From a virus, in IMG/VR virus record IMGVR_UViG_3300047550_004651, positions 1 to 29,907 of that record: a stretch of 29,907 bases of DNA; one strand, written 5' to 3'. Below, piece by piece: positions 8,380-19,886 of this stretch (positions are counted from its first letter, which is position 1; each line of letters starts with the position of its first letter). The notes under the pieces are model-generated. The model was given only the letters and a program-made list of their open reading frames with translations. It searched no databases and was not told the DNA's origin. A program made the position numbers and the translations under genes.

Positions 8380-8808
8380 ATGCAATTAAAACCATTAATT
8401 ATTTGGGAAAAATGGCAAGACCCTATTCTGAATAATTTAACAGATATTACTGATCATATCTCAGATACTAATACAAATGAGTATAATGAAGATTATACTA
8501 CAGAAGAAAACGAGGAGTCTTTTGATCAGTCTAAATCTTATAAATATCCATTAATAATAACTCCTATGGGTCTTCTCCCATATAACGAAAAAACCTCGTG
8601 TGATAAAGTGTTTAATTTTTGGGTTGGTCATACTAATTTTTCTATTACTAAAGATATCTCTAATATTTTAGAAGAATCTATAGGAGTAGAAACATTAGAT
8701 ATATTTACTAGATATAGATTTAGAATTGGAATTGGTAAAGCTTTTAAAGACTCAAAAATTATGACAAATATAAATAATAAAATCTACGAGCACATAAATG
8801 AATATTAA
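8380..8808 (+). CDS. Conserved phage protein of unknown function
   Basis: 142 residues. The N-terminal 50 are acidic and low complexity (Asn, Asp, Glu, Thr). The C-terminal half contains FNFWVGHTNFSITKDI and GVETLDIFTRYRFRIGIGKAF, a strongly patterned block I associate with a conserved unnamed phage family. It sits directly upstream of the ClpP-like gene, with an 11-base overlap. No function is proposed. Confidence 0.65.
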   Translation: MQLKPLIIWEKWQDPILNNLTDITDHISDTNTNEYNEDYTTEENEESFDQSKSYKYPLIITPMGLLPYNEKTSCDKVFNFWVGHTNFSITKDISNILEESIGVETLDIFTRYRFRIGIGKAFKDSKIMTNINNKIYEHINEY

Positions 8809-9499
8809 TACAGATATTCCAGAAATTAATAATATATCTAATATACATGATATAAATATAGATCTTAAAAACAGAGAAATATATTTACATTCATATATGG
8901 GTTGTGAAGGAGAAGAGCCAGGAGTTGATTATAAATCAGCTATTACTTTACAAAAAAACTTAAGAATATTAGATTCATTAGATAATAGTCCAATATTAAT
9001 ACATATGCATCTACCAGGAGGAGATTGGAGCGATTGTTTGGGTATGTATGATGCTATTAAAGCATGTAGATCAAAAACTATTATATTGGCTTATGCTAAA
9101 GTTGAATCATCTAGTAGTGTTATTTTTCAAGCTGCTGATTTAAGAGTTTTAATGCCAAATGCACATGTTTTGTTGCATTATGGATCAATCTCACTAGATG
9201 CTGAACATAAAGCAGCAACAAGTAATTTGAGATGGAGTGAGAGAGAATCAGAAAAAATGTTACAAATATTTTGTGAAAAATGCGTAGATAGTCCTGTTGC
9301 TATTGAAAAAAATTGGAAAAAAATGATGATTAAAAAACATATTCAGTCTCAATTATCTAATTATTCAGACTGGATAATGTCTGCTGAGGAAGCGGTGTAT
9401 TATGGTTTTGCTGATAGTATATTAGGATTAGATTTATATCCTACAATAGATAGTTTAAAAAAACCTAAACGCCGTAGAAAGAACACCAATGATAATTGA
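8798..9499 (+). CDS. ClpP-like serine protease
   Basis: 233 residues with a ClpP/crotonase fold layout: NREIYLH (25-31), LIHMHLPGGDWSDCLGMYDAI (67-87, matching the ClpP NSPGG region), a serine run at 104-107 where the nucleophile GASMA-like motif belongs, and MPNAHVLLHYG with the catalytic His127. The catalytic Ser is probably 105. The C-terminus has SAEEAVYYGFADSILG, the usual ClpP ending. No Clp ATPase is visible here. In phages such proteins often act as capsid maturation proteases, but they could also pair with host Clp ATPases. The acidic N-terminal 20 residues are extra. It overlaps its neighbours on both sides. Confidence 0.85.
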   Translation: MNINTDIPEINNISNIHDINIDLKNREIYLHSYMGCEGEEPGVDYKSAITLQKNLRILDSLDNSPILIHMHLPGGDWSDCLGMYDAIKACRSKTIILAYAKVESSSSVIFQAADLRVLMPNAHVLLHYGSISLDAEHKAATSNLRWSERESEKMLQIFCEKCVDSPVAIEKNWKKMMIKKHIQSQLSNYSDWIMSAEEAVYYGFADSILGLDLYPTIDSLKKPKRRRKNTNDN

Positions 9500-11436: not shown

Positions 11437-11524
11437 ATAGAAATTTTTATTTAAATCATCAATTATTCAATTAATAAGGTGTATTATCAGATGAAATATC
11501 CAACACACTTTACTGGAGAAAAAA

Positions 11525-12097
11525 ATGTCTATTACTTCATATGCAGTTAAGGCTTCAGATGGTTCAGACTATGATTCAGTTGCCATTAATGCCAAAGGTA
11601 GCGGAGCAGGTGGAAACGGAGGTTCTGTAGCCCGTGGGGGTTCAGTAGCTTCTAATTTATTAGATAATGTTGATGTTTCAAGATATAACGCTGGTGTATT
11701 TGGCTCAACAGTATTAGATAATAGTTGGGCAGACGAGGCTCTTAGTGCTGGTACTTTTGCATATAACAATGCATCTCCAATAGCCAAAAGAGTAACAGAT
11801 ACATTAGCTGGTAGTGTCTCAAATGATACACTATTAAGTGGTGCTGCTGTTCCAGCAAATATTCGTAGTATTCATAAACTAGAAACATTAAGAACACAAA
11901 GAATCACAACAGCTATTCGTAGTAATAAGTATAATAGATATACTGGTGCTTGGGATTCTGGATTTCCAGCAAATGCAGTTGATTCTCTTAATACAGATGA
12001 TGCTGCTACTCCAACACGTAGTGTTCCTGGCGAATTAACTTATAAAACTAGTGCTCCTTTAGCCGTAAATGATAATTATAAAGCTAAAAATGGTTAA
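11525..12097 (+). CDS. Ala/Ser/Gly-rich protein, probable virion or abundant late protein
   Basis: 190 residues, unusually rich in Ala, Ser, Gly, Asn and Thr and poor in Lys compared with all neighbours. A Gly-rich stretch (24-40, GSGAGGNGGSVARGGSV) follows the N-terminus. Later segments include FGSTVLDNSWADEALSAG and AIRSNKYNRYTGAWDSG. There is no signal peptide or membrane segment. The gene stands alone: a 100-base leader with a strong GGAG site before it and an intrinsic terminator after it. That architecture and composition fit a highly expressed structural protein, but the family is not recognised. Confidence 0.6.
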   Translation: MSITSYAVKASDGSDYDSVAINAKGSGAGGNGGSVARGGSVASNLLDNVDVSRYNAGVFGSTVLDNSWADEALSAGTFAYNNASPIAKRVTDTLAGSVSNDTLLSGAAVPANIRSIHKLETLRTQRITTAIRSNKYNRYTGAWDSGFPANAVDSLNTDDAATPTRSVPGELTYKTSAPLAVNDNYKAKNG

Positions 12098-12141: not shown

Positions 12142-12177
12142 AAAGGCCATTGTTTAATGCAATGGCTTTTAGTTTTT
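12142..12177 (+). terminator. Rho-independent terminator
   Basis: A perfect 7-bp stem (GCCATTG 12146-12152 with CAATGGC 12160-12166) around a 7-base loop is extended by one G-T and three A-T pairs to 11 bp. It is followed by a T-rich tract, TTTT at 12167-12170 and TTTTT at 12173-12177. It sits 45 bases after the stop of the Ala/Ser/Gly-rich gene and before the membrane-protein cluster, so it should end the monocistronic transcript. Confidence 0.9.
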
Positions 12178-12190
12178 ATGGAGACATTAC

Positions 12191-12523
12191 ATGCCAGAAG
12201 ATAATGCAGATATAATACATTTTTGGCAAACAGCAGCTATGACTCTTTTTGGTATATTAACTACCATAGGGGCATTTTGGTTTGGAATTATGAGACATCT
12301 TGTTAAAAAAGATGATATTATAGAACTAATTGAGCTACATTCCCCATATCTACAAGACAGAGAAAATATTATGGCAAGATTAGACGCTGCAAAAGATATG
12401 CAATCACAGTTCGCATCTGCATTACAAAAAAATACAGAAGTAATGTCAGAACTTAAAATTCAGATTGCGGTATTAGGTAAAACATTACAAAATTTAGAGT
12501 CTAGAATAGAGAAAGAAATTTAA
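12191..12523 (+). CDS. Small single-pass membrane protein with coiled-coil tail
   Basis: 110 residues. One hydrophobic helix at about 13-34 (AAMTLFGILTTIGAFWFGIM) follows a short acidic N-terminus. The rest (about 58-110) is charged and heptad-like, ending LGKTLQNLESRIEKEI, consistent with a coiled coil in the cytosol or periplasm. The GGAG ribosome binding site is well placed. Size and layout are compatible with a holin or spanin-like accessory, but no family is recognised. It is the first gene of the membrane cluster. Confidence 0.65.
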   Translation: MPEDNADIIHFWQTAAMTLFGILTTIGAFWFGIMRHLVKKDDIIELIELHSPYLQDRENIMARLDAAKDMQSQFASALQKNTEVMSELKIQIAVLGKTLQNLESRIEKEI

Positions 12524-12528
12524 TAACT

Positions 12529-12849
12529 ATGTACAAACCTGGATACAAAACAAGCGAATTTTGGATCACATTAGTATCATTTATATGTTCTGGTTTATAT
12601 TTAATTGGATTAATAAGTTTTGATGATAAAAATAGTACCACAGATGTATTAGCACATACTATTGAGTCTATTATTTTAATTGCGGGTCAATCTGCTGTAT
12701 TTATGAGATATATTAAGACTAGATCAGAAATTAAACAAAAAATTATTACAGAAGAAAAATTAGTAACGGAGAATAAAAATGACAACAGAAGAAAAGGTTC
12801 AACTAGAACTAGATCAAACAATAAACAGTCTACAAAAAAGCCTAAGTGA
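12529..12849 (+). CDS. Two-helix membrane protein, holin-like
   Basis: 106 residues. GYKTSEFWITL (5-15) starts the first membrane helix (about 11-31), and a second spans about 42-62. A strongly basic tail (RRKGSTRTRS..KQSTKKPK) follows. The short first loop, two helices and basic C-terminus resemble class II holins, and the YKTSEFW opening recalls small phage membrane proteins annotated as holins. The last 71 bases overlap the next gene in another frame, so the basic tail is encoded in the overlap. Function is inferred, not shown. Confidence 0.6.
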   Translation: MYKPGYKTSEFWITLVSFICSGLYLIGLISFDDKNSTTDVLAHTIESIILIAGQSAVFMRYIKTRSEIKQKIITEEKLVTENKNDNRRKGSTRTRSNNKQSTKKPK

Positions 12850-13180
12850 AGTTAAGAGTATAGCAATAGCAGAGGCATGGAAAATACTACAATTATTAGT
12901 AGCTAAAATAGTTAAAGCTATAGAAGATGCGGCTATCAATTGGTCTGGATCAGATAAAAAAGAATTAGCAATGTCTTTAATATCATCTATTTATGATAAG
13001 CTATTCTTAGTAATAGATATTCCTATGATTCCAGCTTTTATAGAAGGATATTTGCATTTATACGTCAAAAGAATACTATTATCTTTAGTTAGCTCAACCA
13101 TAGATGCTACTGTAACGACTTTTAAAGAAATAGGATTTTTTGTTTCCAAAAACCAATACAGGGGTATTAATAAAGTATAA
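12779..13180 (+). CDS. Helical, membrane-associated-looking protein
   Basis: 133 residues. The start ATG has a good ACGGAG site 8 bases upstream, despite lying 71 bases inside the previous gene. The N-terminal 60 residues are amphipathic and helical. A hydrophobic stretch (about 80-108) contains LFLVIDIPMIPAFIEGYLHLYVKR, broken by prolines and charges, so it may lie on the membrane rather than cross it. SGSDKKELAMSLISSIYD is a block I associate with small phage proteins of the lysis region. No function is proposed. Confidence 0.6.
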   Translation: MTTEEKVQLELDQTINSLQKSLSEVKSIAIAEAWKILQLLVAKIVKAIEDAAINWSGSDKKELAMSLISSIYDKLFLVIDIPMIPAFIEGYLHLYVKRILLSLVSSTIDATVTTFKEIGFFVSKNQYRGINKV

Positions 13181-13191
13181 AAGGAGAATTT

Positions 13192-13557
13192 ATGAATTTT
13201 ACACAGACGTTCGAGGAATTTAGCGGATCATTGGGTTCAACAGATTTATTATTATATGCTGGTCTTGGAATTGTATTATGGGTTCTGTTTAAGGATAAAC
13301 TAAGTCCAGTACAACAATTTGTCTTAGACTTGGTTAATAAAGCAAAAGGTAAAATTGGTAAACCGTCTTTACCAGAACTAACAGTAGTCAATAAACCATC
13401 AGATCAACAAAATCTATTTTTTGATTTAGTAGTATCATGGAAACAAACAAGAGATTTGGCAGAAAAAAGTGGGTGCCAAAAAGCTGTAGAGGTTGCTGAC
13501 CAAATGTTTCCATATCTTAGTCCAACAATTTGTGCGGAGAAGAAAGTCAATGAATAA
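13192..13557 (+). CDS. Single-pass membrane protein of unknown function
   Basis: 121 residues. A short acidic N-terminus is followed by a membrane helix at about 17-33 (STDLLLYAGLGIVLWVLF) and a soluble tail with two cysteines (about 95 and 114). A clear AGGAG site lies 5-9 bases before ATG. The N-in or N-out orientation is not certain. It overlaps the next gene by 8 bases. Confidence 0.65.
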   Translation: MNFTQTFEEFSGSLGSTDLLLYAGLGIVLWVLFKDKLSPVQQFVLDLVNKAKGKIGKPSLPELTVVNKPSDQQNLFFDLVVSWKQTRDLAEKSGCQKAVEVADQMFPYLSPTICAEKKVNE

Positions 13558-14056
13558 TAAAGTACTATTAGTATTGGGTTGTGGATTAGTATTAATCGGA
13601 CTTTTAAAACCGAGTATTCCCAATTTACTTCAAGATTTTAATAAACCAGGAAATGTTGTAGTAACGAACTATATTACCGATGCTCCAACAGATCAACAAT
13701 TATTAGAAAATTCTTTGGCTGTTAAAAAAATATTTGATGCTTCTGACTCAAATACTAAAAGATATGATTGTCTTAGACTATCTTCTTTATATGCTGATCT
13801 GGCTCTTTTAATAGAACTTAAAAACGAAGATGTTGTACTTAAAGATACAATGTCTATTAAAGAAGCTAATTCATTAGCTGGTAAAATGCTTAAATTAGAT
13901 ATTAAAAATAAATATCTAGGACTTTCTGGTAAATGCGAAGAACTAGTTAAGTCTGCTATAGGCTCTGATGAAGCGTTATTGGATGATGATTTAAGAAATA
14001 AAGCAGCAGAAGCTTTCAGAGCATTAAGCTGGGCCTGTTATAAAGGTAGTCAATAA
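13550..14056 (+). CDS. Membrane-anchored protein of unknown function
   Basis: 168 residues from ATG 13550, chosen over upstream starts because a GGAG site lies about 10 bases before it and the N-terminus then becomes a clean membrane anchor (MNNKVLLVLGCGLVLIGLL). The VLGC could suggest a lipobox, but the hydrophobic run continues beyond the cysteine, so a plain anchor is likelier. The rest is soluble, helical and acidic with two cysteine pairs. It precedes the peptidase gene, sharing one base (stop 14054-14056, ATG 14056). Confidence 0.65.
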   Translation: MNNKVLLVLGCGLVLIGLLKPSIPNLLQDFNKPGNVVVTNYITDAPTDQQLLENSLAVKKIFDASDSNTKRYDCLRLSSLYADLALLIELKNEDVVLKDTMSIKEANSLAGKMLKLDIKNKYLGLSGKCEELVKSAIGSDEALLDDDLRNKAAEAFRALSWACYKGSQ

Positions 14057-14982
14057 TGCCAAGAATGACTCCAGAAGAACTCTATAATAATTATAGAAAA
14101 GGATTTAGTGGATGTTTGTGGGAAGCCCACATCTTTGATCAATTGATGGCCAAATCTAAATATGGATTATTTGGTGATGGTGCTAAAAGAATTAAAAATA
14201 GTGGCGTTGGTAAATTATCTCTTCCATATAAGTCTGTATTAAAGTTTGATAAGAATCCATATAATGAGAGACAAACTACTGGAGATTGCGTAAGCCATGG
14301 AACTAGAGCGGCTTGTGATATAACAAGAGCCGTAGAAATAGATATTAAAGGAGATAAAGAAAGCTGGGTGGCTAAAGGCGCTACAGAAGCAATCTATGGA
14401 GCAAGAGGACACGGTGGACAGGGAATGAGTTGTGCTAGAGCCGCAGATTTTGTTAGTAACAATGGCGGTATAATATTAAGAAAAAATTATCCTGGTATTG
14501 CAGACTTTAGTAAATATAATGGTAATTTAGGAGCTAATTGGGGACCAAAAGGATTACCAGATAAAGTCATAGACCTAGCCAATGATCATCAGGTAAGAAC
14601 AGTATCTTTAATTCGTACAGTAGAAGAAGCTAGAGATGCCTTAGCTAATGGTTATGGATTAGCAGTATGTTCTAGTTATGGATTTAGTAATAAAAGAGAT
14701 AAAAAGGGATTTGCTAAAGTTAGTGGTAGTTGGGCTCATTGTATGGCATGGACGGCATGTGATGATACTAATGGCGAACCAGCATTTTTGGTTCAAAATA
14801 GTTGGGGCAAATGGAATGATGGTGGACATCCAGATTGGGGTCCGATACCAGAAGGTTCATTTTTAATTCATGCTGATGCAGCAGAAGGTATGCTTAGTCA
14901 AAGTGGTTCTTATGCCTTCAGTGATTTTGATGGTTTTCCTCCACAAAAACTCCCGGACTACGGTTTCGTAGATTATTTATGA
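14056..14982 (+). CDS. Papain-like (C1-fold) cysteine peptidase
   Basis: 308 residues. The catalytic triad of papain-like peptidases can be read in order: Gln73 and Cys78 in RQTTGDCVSHG, His228 in GSWAHCMAW, and Asn248 in LVQNSWG. There is no signal peptide, no inhibitory propeptide of the standard type and no membrane segment. The first 55 residues are a short helical lead. It may process virion proteins, cut host envelope proteins or cleave peptide bonds in cell-wall polymers. It lies in the middle of small membrane-protein genes. The stop overlaps the next ATG (ATGA). Confidence 0.8.
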   Translation: MPRMTPEELYNNYRKGFSGCLWEAHIFDQLMAKSKYGLFGDGAKRIKNSGVGKLSLPYKSVLKFDKNPYNERQTTGDCVSHGTRAACDITRAVEIDIKGDKESWVAKGATEAIYGARGHGGQGMSCARAADFVSNNGGIILRKNYPGIADFSKYNGNLGANWGPKGLPDKVIDLANDHQVRTVSLIRTVEEARDALANGYGLAVCSSYGFSNKRDKKGFAKVSGSWAHCMAWTACDDTNGEPAFLVQNSWGKWNDGGHPDWGPIPEGSFLIHADAAEGMLSQSGSYAFSDFDGFPPQKLPDYGFVDYL

Positions 14983-15149
14983 AATTTCTAGATAAAATAG
15001 CATTAAATAGACTTATAGCAATTATTACAAGTTTTATTTTAGGTTTAGCTAAGATCTTAAAAACTAAAGAAAAAGAAATAGAGCCACCTATTTTAAAACC
15101 ACGTAGACCCATTATAGAAAAAATCAGGAAAATTTTTGATCATGAATAA
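14979..15149 (+). CDS. 56-residue single-pass membrane protein
   Basis: A 56-codon frame starts at ATG 14979, whose ATGA overlaps the peptidase stop, and ends at TAA 15147-15149, which overlaps the following gene. Residues 10-27 (NRLIAIITSFILGLAKIL) form a membrane helix. The rest is basic and proline-containing (EPPILKPRRP). Tight coupling on both sides argues that it is a real gene despite its size. No family is recognised. Confidence 0.6.
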   Translation: MKFLDKIALNRLIAIITSFILGLAKILKTKEKEIEPPILKPRRPIIEKIRKIFDHE

Positions 15150-15390
15150 ATTGCTATGTTGTTTACTAATCGGATCATTAATATATGCATCCACACCCAA
15201 ATATAGTACGTTATCTGCTGTGACAGTAGCAGGAGCGATAATTAAAAGCTCTCAGAATGAACCAACAATAATTAAATATAAAAGGAAAGATTGTCCTGTA
15301 TGCAAGGGCAAAGGATGGTATATGAGTGGTGATAATATTAAAAAAATAGATTGTACATATTGTGAGCCAGATAATGAATCACAAAACTGA
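15142..15390 (+). CDS. Exported or membrane-anchored zinc-ribbon protein
   Basis: 82 residues from ATG 15142; a TTG at 15136 is an alternative start, closer to the AGGAA site at 15126-15130. The N-terminus (NKLLCCLLIGSLIYAS) is a signal peptide or anchor. Cys51 and Cys54 (CPVCKGKGW) and Cys71 and Cys74 (CTYC) make a four-cysteine zinc ribbon of the DnaJ CxxCxGxG type. A zinc-binding domain placed outside the membrane or at its surface is unusual for a phage protein. It overlaps both neighbours. Confidence 0.6.
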   Translation: MNKLLCCLLIGSLIYASTPKYSTLSAVTVAGAIIKSSQNEPTIIKYKRKDCPVCKGKGWYMSGDNIKKIDCTYCEPDNESQN

Positions 15391-15736
15391 ATTAGAGAAC
15401 ATAGCACAAGAAATAATTCATAAATCTGGATTATCTTCAGATAATCATGGTAGTGTTATATTAACTCTAATGTTTATTTCTATAATATTAACTTGTATTA
15501 GAGTATTTCAAGAATGCAATAAAAATAAAGATGCTAAGTTTTATACCTATCAGATTAAGCTATTAGCAAATAAAAGAAGCTGGTTAACTAAACTCAGACT
15601 TAAAAGAATTCTTAAAAAAGAATTAAATGCACAAGATTATCAAACACACAAAGAACAAATTGTTACAGCAATTTTGGATGTTGCTGAGAAACTCACGGAA
15701 GAACAAGTGTCAAAAATATTAGAGGTAAAATCATGA
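15374..15736 (+). CDS. Single-pass membrane protein
   Basis: 120 residues from ATG 15374; a GTG at 15362 would add four residues. One membrane helix at about 26-43 (SVILTLMFISIILTCIRV) splits a polar N-terminus from a strongly basic, helical C-terminal part (SWLTKLRLKRILKKEL). Its first 17 bases overlap the zinc-ribbon gene, and its stop TGA overlaps the next ATG. No family is recognised. Confidence 0.6.
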   Translation: MNHKTELENIAQEIIHKSGLSSDNHGSVILTLMFISIILTCIRVFQECNKNKDAKFYTYQIKLLANKRSWLTKLRLKRILKKELNAQDYQTHKEQIVTAILDVAEKLTEEQVSKILEVKS

Positions 15737-15981
15737 TGAGTTTATTAGTCTGGTGCGTATATGGTATATTTGTTGGTAGTATTGCTAAGTCTATCATTCC
15801 TGGTGAAGAAAAATTTGGTTTTTTCCAAACAGTAGCACTAGGAGTTGTTGGATCATATGCCGGTGGTGCTATATTATATATGCTTGGCAAATATGAATCA
15901 TTATCTCCTGCTGGAGTTTTAATGGGTATTATAGGAGCATCTGTTAGTCTAGTAGTATATAATAAACTAAAGCAAAACTAG
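15733..15981 (+). CDS. GlsB/YeaQ/YmgE-family-like small membrane protein
   Basis: 82 residues with three hydrophobic segments (about 3-21, 30-51 and 58-78). The sequence pattern WCVYGIFVGSIAKSIIPG, then FQTVALGVVGSYAGGAI, matches the GlsB/YeaQ/YmgE (transglycosylase-associated) family of small glycine-rich membrane proteins found in bacteria under stress. The biochemical role of that family is unclear. It closes the membrane cluster; the next gene has its own promoter immediately after the stop. Confidence 0.75.
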   Translation: MMSLLVWCVYGIFVGSIAKSIIPGEEKFGFFQTVALGVVGSYAGGAILYMLGKYESLSPAGVLMGIIGASVSLVVYNKLKQN

Positions 15982-15984
15982 CTG

Positions 15985-16013
15985 TTGACCTAAGCTCAGT
16001 TTTGGTCTATAAT
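15985..16013 (+). promoter_or_regulatory. Consensus sigma-70-type promoter for dCMP deaminase
   Basis: TTGACC (15985-15990) and TATAAT (16008-16013) are separated by exactly 17 bases: five of six -35 positions and all six -10 positions match the housekeeping consensus. Transcription would begin about 6-8 bases after the -10 box, at 16019-16021, which is the A of the dCMP deaminase ATG. It is the best promoter in the window and probably drives an early transcript with deaminase and ribonucleotide reductase. Confidence 0.85.
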
Positions 16014-16607: not shown

Positions 16608-19600
16608 ATGTCAGCATTGAACGAGCTTCAAAATTATACTTTCGTTAGTAAATATGCTAGGTGGCTTGAGGATAAGAATCGTAGAGAAACCTGGAAAGAA
16701 GCCGTGGATAGAGTTAAAAATATGATGCTGAAACAATATGCCGATAAAGACATATCTGAAGATATAGAGTGGGCATATGATATTATGTATAAAAAGAAAG
16801 TTTTAGGATCACAAAGAGCACTACAGTTTGGTGGAGATCCTATTCTTAAAAGACATGCAAAAATTTATAACTGCACAAGCTCATACTGTGATAGGCTCAG
16901 ATTTTTTCAAGAATGTTTTTGGTTACTACTATGTGGTAGCGGAACAGGTTTTAGCGTACAAAAGCACCATGTTGCTAAACTGCCAACATTTTCACAAGAA
17001 CCAAAATCAGAAAATGGTAGAAAATATGTTATTGAAGATAGTATAGAAGGATGGGCTGATGCTTTGGGTGTTTTGCTAAGTTCTTATTTTAGTAAGCCAT
17101 CAGAAGAAAAATTTAAAGAGTATAAAGATCAATATATTGTATTTGATTATTCTAATATAAGATCAAAAGGATCATCATTATCTTCTGGTGTTGGCAAAGC
17201 ACCAGGATTTGAACCGCTACAAAATGGTCTAGAAAAAATAAGAGCACTTCTAGACAGATGTCTTGCAAATGGACAAAAAAAGCTACGACCAATAGATGCT
17301 TATGATATTATCATGCATAGTAGTGATGCTGTATTATCAGGCGGCGTTAGACGTAGTGCGTCACTAGCTTTGTTTAGTGCTGATGATGAAGAAATGGCTA
17401 AAGCCAAAACCGGAAATTGGTATGTGGAAAATCCACAAAGAGCACGAAGTAATAATTCAGCACTTTTATTAAAAGACGACACAACATTTGAAGAATTTCA
17501 AGTATTGATGGAAAGTGTCAAAGAATTCGGAGAACCAGGATTTATTTGGAGCGATTCTACAGAAATGACATTTAATCCTTGTGTTGTAGCAGATTCTACG
17601 GTGGTGACTGACCGTGGTATAAAGATGGTTGCAGATCTTATTGACCAGCCATTCAATGCTATTGTTGATGGTGTGTCGTATCCAAGTTATAAGGGTTTTT
17701 GGAAAACCGGAACAAAACAAGTCATAGAATTACAGTTTAAGTCTGGCAGAACCTTGAGGGTAACTCCAAATCATAAGATTATGACAACAACCGGATGGAA
17801 AGAAGCTGGTGATATCAATTTTGGTGAAAAGACTGTTATCAACAACCATAGAGACTACCCATTAGATAGTATAGCCAATTTAAATCCTCTATCGTCCGAT
17901 TGGAAAAAGGGATATTTGTTGGGATTATTCTTAGGAGATGGAAATCATTCAAAATCTTCTGCTCAATTAAAGTGGTGGGGAGAATCTAAAGAACAATACA
18001 GACAAGAAGCATATGAAATACTTAATGATATTGGGTTTTCCAATAATCATAATGCGTCAGAACAAAATTCTGTTGCTGTTTATAGCTCTATAGAGTCTAA
18101 AAAGTTAATGCAGTTTGCTATAGATCATGACTGTATGGTCGGAACATCCAAAAGACTAAGCAAAAAATCTATTTGCGGTTCATGGAATCATATCTCTGGT
18201 TTAATTGCTGGTTATTTCGATGCTGATGGAACGGTATTGGTCAATAATATCAAAGGGTCTTCTTTAAGAATATCGTCGGTTCAATTAGACAATTTACAAA
18301 ATCTACAAATAGCACTGAATGCTTTGGGTATTTATTCTAAGATCTATAAAAATCGCAGATCAGAAGGTGATAGGGTTATGCCAGACGGTAATGGTGGAAC
18401 CAAAAGCTATTTCTGCCAAGCATCACACGAAATAGTTATTAGTAGCGATAATATAGTTAGATTTGCAAAATATATTCCTATTAAAAATATTGATAAAGCT
18501 AACAAAATTCAAACAATAGTTAAGAACTATCAAAGAATGCCCAATAGAACTAACTTTATTGATACCCTTATTAATAAAACTATAGTTGGCGAATTAGATG
18601 TATACGATTGCACAGTAGAAGACATTCATGCTTTCGATAACGATAGTGTTTATGTTCATAACTGTGTGGAAGTAGGTATGTGGCCCGTAGATGAGGAAAG
18701 TGGAAAAAGCGGTTGGCAAGGATGTAACCTATCAACAATCAATTGCTCATCTGTATCAGACGAAGAAGACTTTTATGAAAGATGTAAAGCCGCTGCTATT
18801 ATTGGTACTCTTCAAGCTGGATTTACCAAACTAGATTATCTAGGAGAGATTAGTTGCAAAATCTTTGAAAGAGAAGCATTACTAGGTGTTTCTTTAACTG
18901 GCATCATGGAAAAGCATGATTTAGTACTGACAGAAAAAGTACTAAAAGCTGGTGCTAAAATTGCAGTAGAAACCAATAAAGAAATGGCCAAAAAAATTGG
19001 TATCAATCAAGCAGCAAGAGTGACCTGTTTAAAGCCAGAAGGAACATCTAGTTCCATGTTGGGCACCAGTTCGGGCATCCACCCACATCATGCTAAACGC
19101 TATATAAGACACGTACAGGCCAATGTTTTAGAGGCACCATACCAACACTTTAAGAATTATAACCCACAAGCCTGTGAGAAATCCTCATGGTCTGCTAATA
19201 ATACTGATGAGGTTATTAAGTTTCCTATTGAGGTTCCAGACGGTGCTAAATTAAAGAATCAATTACCAGCAGTAGAAATGTTATCAATAGTTAAAGATAC
19301 ACAAAAAAATTGGGTCTATTCTGGTAAAAATAAATCATTATGCACTCAAGAATTTTTAAGCCATAATGTTAGTAATACTGTAACAGTTAAGCCAGAAGAG
19401 TGGGATGATGTAACTAAATTTATATATCAGAATAGAAAATATTTTGCAGGAATAAGCTTAATCCCACAAAGCGGAGACAAAGATTATCCACAGGCACCAT
19501 TTACAACAGTATATACTAGTAGAGAAATAGTTAAAGAATACAGTGATGCTGCTTTATGGTGTTCCGGATTAATAGAGTTGGCCTTAAATGCTTTTAATAA

Positions 19601-19886
19601 TAATTTATGGGCAGCATGTGATTATGTAAATCTTAATCAGGCTAAAGAGAATGATAATGATGATAAATTAAAGTTTATTGTCAAGATGAAAAATTTTGCT
19701 GGTAAATATTTTGATGGGGACGTTAAAAGACTAACATACTGCATGAAAGATGTCTATAACTGGAAGATTTACTGTGATTTATATAATAGCTTTAAGAAAG
19801 TAGATTATACACAACTATTGGAAACAGAAGATAATACGGTAGGAATAGAGGAAATTAGTTGTGCCGGTGGCGCTTGTCTAATTTAA
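16608..19886 (+). CDS. nrdJ: Adenosylcobalamin-dependent (class II) ribonucleoside-triphosphate reductase with intein
   Basis: 1092-residue precursor; removal of the 361-residue intein leaves 731, matching the about 739 residues of the Lactobacillus leichmannii enzyme. Reduces NTPs to dNTPs using adenosylcobalamin. Active-site landmarks are Cys89 (YNCTSSYC, a likely partner of the redox pair), the NPCVE motif with the thiyl-radical cysteine at precursor position 686, the second redox cysteine Cys706 (GWQGCNLS), and the C-terminal shuttle pair Cys1085 and Cys1090 (SCAGGACLI). No class I R2 or class III activase is seen nearby. The AAGGAG site lies 11 bases before ATG. It supplies dNTPs for the replication genes downstream. 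Confidence 0.93.
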   Translation: MSALNELQNYTFVSKYARWLEDKNRRETWKEAVDRVKNMMLKQYADKDISEDIEWAYDIMYKKKVLGSQRALQFGGDPILKRHAKIYNCTSSYCDRLRFFQECFWLLLCGSGTGFSVQKHHVAKLPTFSQEPKSENGRKYVIEDSIEGWADALGVLLSSYFSKPSEEKFKEYKDQYIVFDYSNIRSKGSSLSSGVGKAPGFEPLQNGLEKIRALLDRCLANGQKKLRPIDAYDIIMHSSDAVLSGGVRRSASLALFSADDEEMAKAKTGNWYVENPQRARSNNSALLLKDDTTFEEFQVLMESVKEFGEPGFIWSDSTEMTFNPCVVADSTVVTDRGIKMVADLIDQPFNAIVDGVSYPSYKGFWKTGTKQVIELQFKSGRTLRVTPNHKIMTTTGWKEAGDINFGEKTVINNHRDYPLDSIANLNPLSSDWKKGYLLGLFLGDGNHSKSSAQLKWWGESKEQYRQEAYEILNDIGFSNNHNASEQNSVAVYSSIESKKLMQFAIDHDCMVGTSKRLSKKSICGSWNHISGLIAGYFDADGTVLVNNIKGSSLRISSVQLDNLQNLQIALNALGIYSKIYKNRRSEGDRVMPDGNGGTKSYFCQASHEIVISSDNIVRFAKYIPIKNIDKANKIQTIVKNYQRMPNRTNFIDTLINKTIVGELDVYDCTVEDIHAFDNDSVYVHNCVEVGMWPVDEESGKSGWQGCNLSTINCSSVSDEEDFYERCKAAAIIGTLQAGFTKLDYLGEISCKIFEREALLGVSLTGIMEKHDLVLTEKVLKAGAKIAVETNKEMAKKIGINQAARVTCLKPEGTSSSMLGTSSGIHPHHAKRYIRHVQANVLEAPYQHFKNYNPQACEKSSWSANNTDEVIKFPIEVPDGAKLKNQLPAVEMLSIVKDTQKNWVYSGKNKSLCTQEFLSHNVSNTVTVKPEEWDDVTKFIYQNRKYFAGISLIPQSGDKDYPQAPFTTVYTSREIVKEYSDAALWCSGLIELALNAFNNNLWAACDYVNLNQAKENDNDDKLKFIVKMKNFAGKYFDGDVKRLTYCMKDVYNWKIYCDLYNSFKKVDYTQLLETEDNTVGIEEISCAGGACLI
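17580..18662 (+). mobile_element. In-frame LAGLIDADG intein in the reductase
   Basis: The 361-residue insert begins with Cys1 (TGT 17580-17582, after NP) and ends His-Asn (18657-18662) before extein Cys+1 (18663). Splicing motifs are VTPNH (intein residues 61-65, block B), and VYDCTVEDIHAF to VYVHN at the C-terminus (blocks F and G). Two LAGLIDADG-type motifs, LLGLFLGDG (about 113-121) and LIAGYFDADG (208-217), define a homing-endonuclease domain with both acidic residues kept, so it may be mobile. The frame stays open throughout, indicating an intact element. It splits the host protein directly before its radical cysteine. Confidence 0.95.

Follow-up and report, generated by a model that had tools for sequence, protein, structure and literature searches.

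The canonical holin-endolysin(-spanin) cassettes of tailed phages bring together small membrane genes and one soluble hydrolase without a signal peptide. Where normal murein is absent, peptidases can act as endolysins, as with the pseudomurein endoisopeptidases PeiW and PeiP of methanogen viruses. Here, we describe a block of ten genes built around a papain-fold cysteine peptidase in the IMG/VR viral record IMGVR_UViG_3300047550_004651. We refer to the whole of this 29,907-base record, which has ~30% G+C and carries nearly all of its genes on the + strand, as “the window”. Like the canonical cassettes, the block (positions 12191–15981; Table 1) combines small membrane proteins with a soluble, signal-less hydrolase, has adhesin genes nearby, and has a promoter motif of the class used by structural genes. 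Unlike them, its hydrolase is a papain-fold protease rather than a murein hydrolase, it has ~nine partners, the most constant of these are two unfamiliar anchored proteins, and no spanin pair is recognized. We put the probability at roughly 45% that the block is a late phage lysis (i.e., envelope-breaching) module in which proteolysis takes the place of murein hydrolysis. This reading is favored because the block is laid out like a lysis cassette around a hydrolase with a protease fold, and because none of the murein-hydrolase families sought in relatives was found. As a family, the peptidase is papain-like by fold; as a system, the block would work like a lysis cassette. Unlike the peptidase described here, PeiW and PeiP act on pseudomurein, and we liken them to it by role only. 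They are mentioned in a survey of lytic proteins, in which papain and subtilase go unmentioned (PMC12596118); elsewhere, proteolytic lysis is given only as a hypothesis, for archaeal viruses (PMC4456609). In the literature searched on papain-like phage lysis, subtilase endolysins, and planctomycete phages, we found no described counterpart.

The block is a real, conserved module. A search with the peptidase gave 220 viral relatives, of which 80 were kept, all ~78% or more identical over essentially the whole length. Genes 2–5 and 8–10 recur in 69–80 of these 80 loci (gene 3 in 77), on the same strand and in the same order; gene 7 is found in 58 and gene 1 in 40, the latter count partly reflecting cut contigs. 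Since the genes recur in order, nearly all of them in 58–80 of the 80 relatives, the arrangement is not due to chance. The block takes insertions at three points in close relatives: adhesin-like, structural, or glycosyltransferase genes are found in the gap between genes 1 and 2, downstream of the peptidase, and downstream of gene 10. A survey of three deep clades covered 221 distinct peptidase loci, of which 197 have gene 5 near the peptidase and 169 have gene 4 there; the two are adjacent to one another in 163. Clade II, which is marine, and clade III, made up of ~60 kb phages (one record, G020, has 59% G+C and a terminal repeat of ~123 bases), came from wider searches. One clade II group has the order A, a transmembrane (TM)/PAS gene, a gene of 70 amino acids (aa), the peptidase, an 8-like gene, 9, 4, 5. 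In another, the peptidase, an 8-like gene, a 58-aa holin-like gene, 4, and 5 lie upstream, not downstream, of g8380 and A, meaning that the block has relocated as a unit. Clade II members of gene 9 were also found by iterative profile. In clade III, a subtilase gene adjoins genes 4 and 5 and the peptidase, with a zinc-ribbon gene and a TM-coiled-coil gene close by. Thus, the earlier note's proposal of an undescribed module with a papain-like peptidase at its core holds up, and linkage within it is strict: gene order is fixed in the 80 close relatives, and linkage is kept across all three clades rather than giving way to unlinked occurrence of the genes. The module recurs in hundreds of uncultured aquatic phages, including one complete relative, G001 (230,691 bases, with a terminal repeat of ~124 bases). 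An isolate phage collection searched with three peptidases and the long paralogue described below gave no match.

An AlphaFold model gives the peptidase a papain (C1A, clan CA) fold. The model was built from 60 diverse sequences and has a predicted local distance difference test (pLDDT) score of 90.9; an earlier input of 15 mostly close sequences gave a pLDDT of 45. Foldseek and VIA-align matches are C1A enzymes, the best being xylellain (3ois; Z 21.0, root-mean-square deviation 2.9 over 231 residues). The central helix begins at C78. The complete Gln-Cys-His-Asn site and the lack of a signal peptide, both given in the earlier note, are confirmed. E71, Q73, D77, C78, and H228 are invariant in the 60 diverse members, and N248 is present in 96%; all 158 short members first collected retain the Cys and Asn motifs. 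In the structural alignment, pro-cathepsins begin to match at residue 5, and the N-terminal ~45 residues of the peptidase overlay the propeptide ends, which suggests that it may be made as a zymogen. Its score for Pfam Peptidase_C1, 14.3 bits, is under the curated cut-off of 20.7, so we call it papain-like by fold and not a curated member. Members of the family match only Peptidase_C1 and C39_2, and weakly (5 of 15 members reach E<0.1 for Peptidase_C1), rather than the papain-like murein amidases CHAP and NlpC-P60. Xylellain and the C1A family share the fold and the catalytic site with the phage peptidase, but identity is 14%, and the phage protein is encoded among membrane genes, lacks a signal peptide, and scores below the Peptidase_C1 cut-off. 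When the PDB is searched with the 60-sequence profile, the top match is Cwp84, an S-layer cysteine protease of Clostridioides difficile (E value 0.0017), which also matches by fold (Z 17.4); unlike the phage peptidase, it is a cell-surface protein with a lectin-like domain, is not phage-encoded, and belongs to no such module. BFVD also holds phage-encoded proteins with a papain-like fold, from uncultured Caudovirales (e.g., A0A6J5TCZ4, which is annotated Peptidase_C1); their TM-score is ~0.55 but identity is 13–17%, the comparison being by fold and sequence. The structure search gave no CHAP or NlpC chain among the matches listed, which is not evidence of absence.

Some loci carry a long, Cys-rich paralogue of the peptidase. 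The Cys motif is gone in all 28 copies, with G, S, or A at the Cys position in 14 aligned representatives (515–750 aa), and the paralogue is probably a pseudoprotease reused as a binding or structural protein. It usually follows gene 10 and often precedes an adhesin-like gene of ~1000–1300 aa, one of which is clearly repeat-rich. Examples are found at L003 15263–17002, L058 14339–15895, and L064 12211–13788. This arrangement bears on the possibility that the particle contains both the peptidase and its inactive paralogue, for entry, adhesin processing, or anchoring, while the membrane proteins help the particle or genome through the envelope. The adjoining adhesin-like gene in several relatives, the insertion of such genes within the block, and the structural appearance of the upstream gene A, which is possibly virion-associated and is a conserved neighbor of the module in clades I and II, are all in keeping with a virion-associated system. 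However, the insertion points hold glycosyltransferases too, so proximity to adhesins may be incidental; loci with an active peptidase mostly lack the paralogue (17 of the 221 distinct loci have it); and genes with TM helices are not typical of tailed-phage virion proteins. We consider a role in the virion improbable.

The ten genes all lie on the + strand and overlap or nearly abut, which confirms the coupling claimed in the earlier note, and hydropathy predicts at least one membrane helix in seven of the proteins (genes 1, 2, 4, 5, 7, 9, and 10). The amphipathicity of gene 3 and the signal-like N terminus and CxxC...CxxC motif of gene 8, the proposed exported zinc ribbon, were likewise found. 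The assertion that there is no classical holin stands only in a weak sense: small TM genes of the three clades have best matches to holin PHROGs, below normal significance. Gene 3 weakly matches the holin phrog_6918 (E value 0.0066; 0.00058 for one member of a mixed set), and the clade III analogue of gene 1 has weak holin/XhlA matches. PHROG matches of the block proteins are weak overall, and Pfam's only secure name in the block is that of gene 10 (PF04226, 32.5 bits against a cut-off of 25.3). The probable counterpart of gene 8 in the marine clade II contig L175 is joined to a thioredoxin domain (Thioredoxin_2, E value 1.4e-10). As to a spanin pair or its equivalent, the anchored proteins 4 and 5 and the exported protein 8 are present and give no family match.

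Gene 2 homologues are two-helix hairpins that end in either a basic tail (charge +8 to +13; +9 in the near-identical copy on L002) or a ComEA-like HHH domain (HHH_3, PF12836; E value 1e-15 for the long form). By the positive-inside rule, both ends would be cytosolic. ComEA-type proteins also have a membrane anchor and an HHH domain, like the long form; gene 2 differs in being a phage-encoded two-helix hairpin with both ends predicted to be cytosolic, and in having a short form in which a basic tail replaces HHH. Control of lysis by DNA sensing is not without example, since the T4 antiholin RI is believed to sense periplasmic phage DNA (PMC8385771); for gene 2, this may be taken as a parallel, and only that. 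A hairpin of this type would also suit an envelope-modification or superinfection-exclusion module, whose membrane proteins and peptidase would act during infection to alter the inner membrane and envelope, to block incoming DNA, or to anchor phage DNA at the membrane, without lysis. The diverse array of membrane proteins, in place of just one or two holins, and the high conservation of the peptidase point the same way. By contrast, a peptidase of the secreted-cathepsin type in the cytosol would be unusual for exclusion, the promoter motif common to structural genes suggests late timing, and the phages would be left with no identified lysis enzyme. We judge this explanation unlikely, while ranking it above a role in the virion.

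The absence of a standard endolysin, which had been part of the original argument for an unusual lysis system, was examined in the relatives. In six-frame searches, all with positive controls detected, there was no match to PF00959 in 20 phage records, to PF01464, PF01510, PF05257, PF00877, or PF01551 in 13 phage records and one metagenome-assembled genome (MAG), or to PF13539 or PF01520 in 18 genomes. Hence, eight murein-hydrolase families are without a match in up to 20 relative genomes, and no clear endolysin of these families is encoded elsewhere. Among 45+25+29 G001 proteins scanned, there was no murein hydrolase among the matches listed; giant or chunk-crossing genes of G001 were covered by the six-frame searches only. 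Other proteases are present. A ~300-aa subtilase is encoded in 16 of 18 genomes, including all 13 of clade I and all three of clade III. In the large clade I genomes G001, G017, and G009, the subtilase gene follows a trypsin-like gene with the motif RGKGTAT upstream, and the trypsin-like product has a signal peptide in G001 and G017. Just upstream of this pair in G001 (L082 3416–6843) are genes for an exported thioredoxin, a TM-coiled-coil protein, and an actin-like protein (Volactin profile). On L343 and L344, the tandem lies on the reverse strand.

The RGKGTAT motif is also associated with the module. In relatives, it occurs in sense orientation upstream of gene A in 75 of 113 cases (3 antisense), gene 1 in 22 of 63 (1 antisense), gene 2 in 32 of 77 (0 antisense), and gene 7 in 25 of 61 (1 antisense), and is hardly present upstream of 4, 5, the peptidase, 8, 10, dCMP, or NRD. 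In G001, it precedes 6 of the 10 structural genes with an upstream gap vs 0 of 6 replication genes. Over a whole genome, the 8-base form is not enriched (62 occurrences vs ~70 expected), and only its sense placement before particular genes is notable. This placement indicates that the block is probably regulated with the structural genes, as two or three units; expression would then be late. The boundaries described in the earlier note, an upstream terminator and a downstream promoter, were both recovered. A scan placed the terminator hairpin at 12146–12166 on the − strand, and relatives have equivalent hairpins in the gap between A and gene 1. The conclusion that the block behaves as one unit was too strong, however: because the motif often precedes genes 1, 2, and 7 in relatives, and insertions are frequent inside the block, it is probably not a single transcription unit.

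Genomic position bears on two further explanations. First, the peptidase could be a prohead or virion-maturation protease, with the membrane genes alongside being unrelated. Conservation at the level of a core enzyme would fit, but in G001 the peptidase gene is far from the structural genes and on the opposite strand, a separate ClpP-like protein (the g8798 family) is encoded beside the block, and membrane genes 4 and 5 travel with the peptidase; this seems more improbable still than a role in the virion. Second, the peptidase could serve in host takeover by attacking host proteins in the cytosol, as its lack of a signal peptide and its location amid nucleotide-metabolism genes would allow. 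Its partners are membrane-bound or exported, though, and the promoter class is that of structural genes. We regard host takeover as the least probable of the explanations considered here.

A sigma-like protein is among the products of the window and suggests that the hosts are bacteria; archaeal hosts were set aside on this ground. g6952 may be the sigma factor cognate to RGKGTAT. A second genome scan gave six MAG contigs with relatives, assigned to SAR202, Lokiarchaeota, Flavobacteriales, and others, where a first scan gave none. We treat these as viral contigs caught up in binning and assign no host from them. The genome_contigs L175, L176, L177, and L178, from MAGs labeled SAR202, Lokiarchaeota, and Synechococcaceae, are most likely mis-binned viral sequence.

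Proteolytic lysis could proceed as follows. Late in infection, the module would be expressed, probably from the phage-specific promoter class common to structural genes. The holin-like membrane proteins (1, 2, 3, and perhaps 7, 9, and 10) would build up in the inner membrane and might form pores, while the signal-less peptidase would build up in the cytosol, to be released when the membrane opens. Because it has a protease fold and the murein-hydrolase families sought gave no match, the peptidase would digest proteins of the host envelope. The anchored proteins 4 and 5, which accompany it most constantly, could hold it in place or keep it in check. The exported gene 8 product, a zinc ribbon with a thioredoxin domain in its probable marine counterpart, may break disulfides, and the subtilase and the secreted trypsin-like protease encoded elsewhere in relatives' genomes may join in. 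Through its putative nucleic-acid-binding tail, gene 2 might link DNA to the opening of the membrane. In the natural host, the envelope would depend on protein rather than mainly on murein. More tentatively than the lysis function itself, we suggest that a widespread uncultured phage lineage lyses by proteolysis: a holin-like set would free a papain-fold “endolysin” that, with the subtilase, the trypsin-like protease, and the exported thioredoxin, dismantles a protein-dependent, possibly disulfide-linked envelope, the DNA-binding hairpin possibly gating the opening.

Several observations weigh against proteolytic lysis. Endolysins usually vary, and it is unusual for one that identity between large phages is 76–82% for the peptidase and mostly 39–62% for its neighbors (gene 2, 39–61%; gene 4, 52–62%; gene 5, 44–59%; gene 10, 63–76%). 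Matches to holins are weak and of a kind readily drawn by short TM proteins. Genes 4, 5, and 9 resemble no known lysis protein, and no role in a holin is established for a DNA-binding domain anchored in the membrane. The protein-dependent envelope is an assumption. Neither of two clade II genomes has a subtilase match. Lastly, GH19, GH25, glucosaminidase, and other murein-hydrolase families fell outside the six-frame searches and are therefore possible. Among the functions first offered for the block, a new type of lysis cassette is the best fit, though only as a candidate, and exclusion and envelope remodeling rank lower.

Features of the block and its boundaries are listed in Table 1. The probable starts of gene 5 (ATG 13550), gene 8 (ATG 15142), and gene 9 (ATG 15374) differ from those in the mechanical open reading frame list. 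Just upstream of the block, positions 8798–9499 encode a ClpP-like protein (from a family match on the G001 homologue), possibly a prohead protease. Downstream, the dCMP deaminase gene follows the boundary promoter, and a class II ribonucleotide reductase gene (16608–19886, 1092 aa) has an intein-like internal insertion of ~350 aa; its 732-aa relative in G001 aligns as two blocks flanking the insertion. The structural half of G001 (63877–128604; L085–L088) contains genes of 2631, 5078, and 4589 codons, with Mtd_N, fn3, and lectin-like domains among the neighboring proteins. A 448-aa G001 gene at 144390, considered as a major capsid protein to serve as a conservation yardstick, was dropped, having no match in 12 other genomes.

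Table 1. Coordinates of the peptidase module and flanking features in the window
Feature	Position	Strand	Description
RGKGTAT-class phage promoter motif	11478..11487	+	GGTGTATTAT; upstream of gene A
Gene A	11525..12097	+	190 aa; Gly/Ser/Ala-rich, no helix; direct upstream neighbor
Intrinsic terminator	12145..12177	+	A/gene 1 gap; hairpin GCCATTG-TTTAATG-CAATGGC, then TTTTAGTTTTT (T-run)
Gene 1	12191..12523	+	110 aa; N-terminal TM helix, conserved coiled coil
Gene 2	12529..12849	+	106 aa; two-helix hairpin, basic C-terminal tail
Gene 3	12779..13180	+	133 aa; amphipathic/weakly hydrophobic, conserved
Gene 4	13192..13557	+	121 aa; N-terminal TM helix, linker, conserved C-terminal domain; core partner
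Gene 5	13550..14056	+	168 aa; N-terminal anchor, conserved ~130-aa domain; core partner
Papain-fold cysteine peptidase	14056..14982	+	308 aa; Q73/C78/H228/N248; no signal peptide
Gene 7	14979..15149	+	56 aa; single TM helix, basic
Gene 8	15142..15390	+	82 aa; signal-like N terminus, zinc-ribbon motif (CxxC...CxxC)
Gene 9	15374..15736	+	120 aa; one TM helix, helical tail
Gene 10	15733..15981	+	82 aa; 2–3 TM helices; Transgly_assoc family (PF04226)
Sigma70-like promoter of dCMP-deaminase/nrdJ unit (boundary)	15985..16013	+	TTGACC-17-TATAAT, 11/12

If proteolytic lysis is borne out, the module would be a candidate for lysis by proteases instead of murein hydrolases. The phages that carry it form a group common in aquatic metagenomes, with no isolate relative in the phage collection searched. 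The module would also offer a handle on the hosts of these phages, as cells with a protein-dependent envelope.

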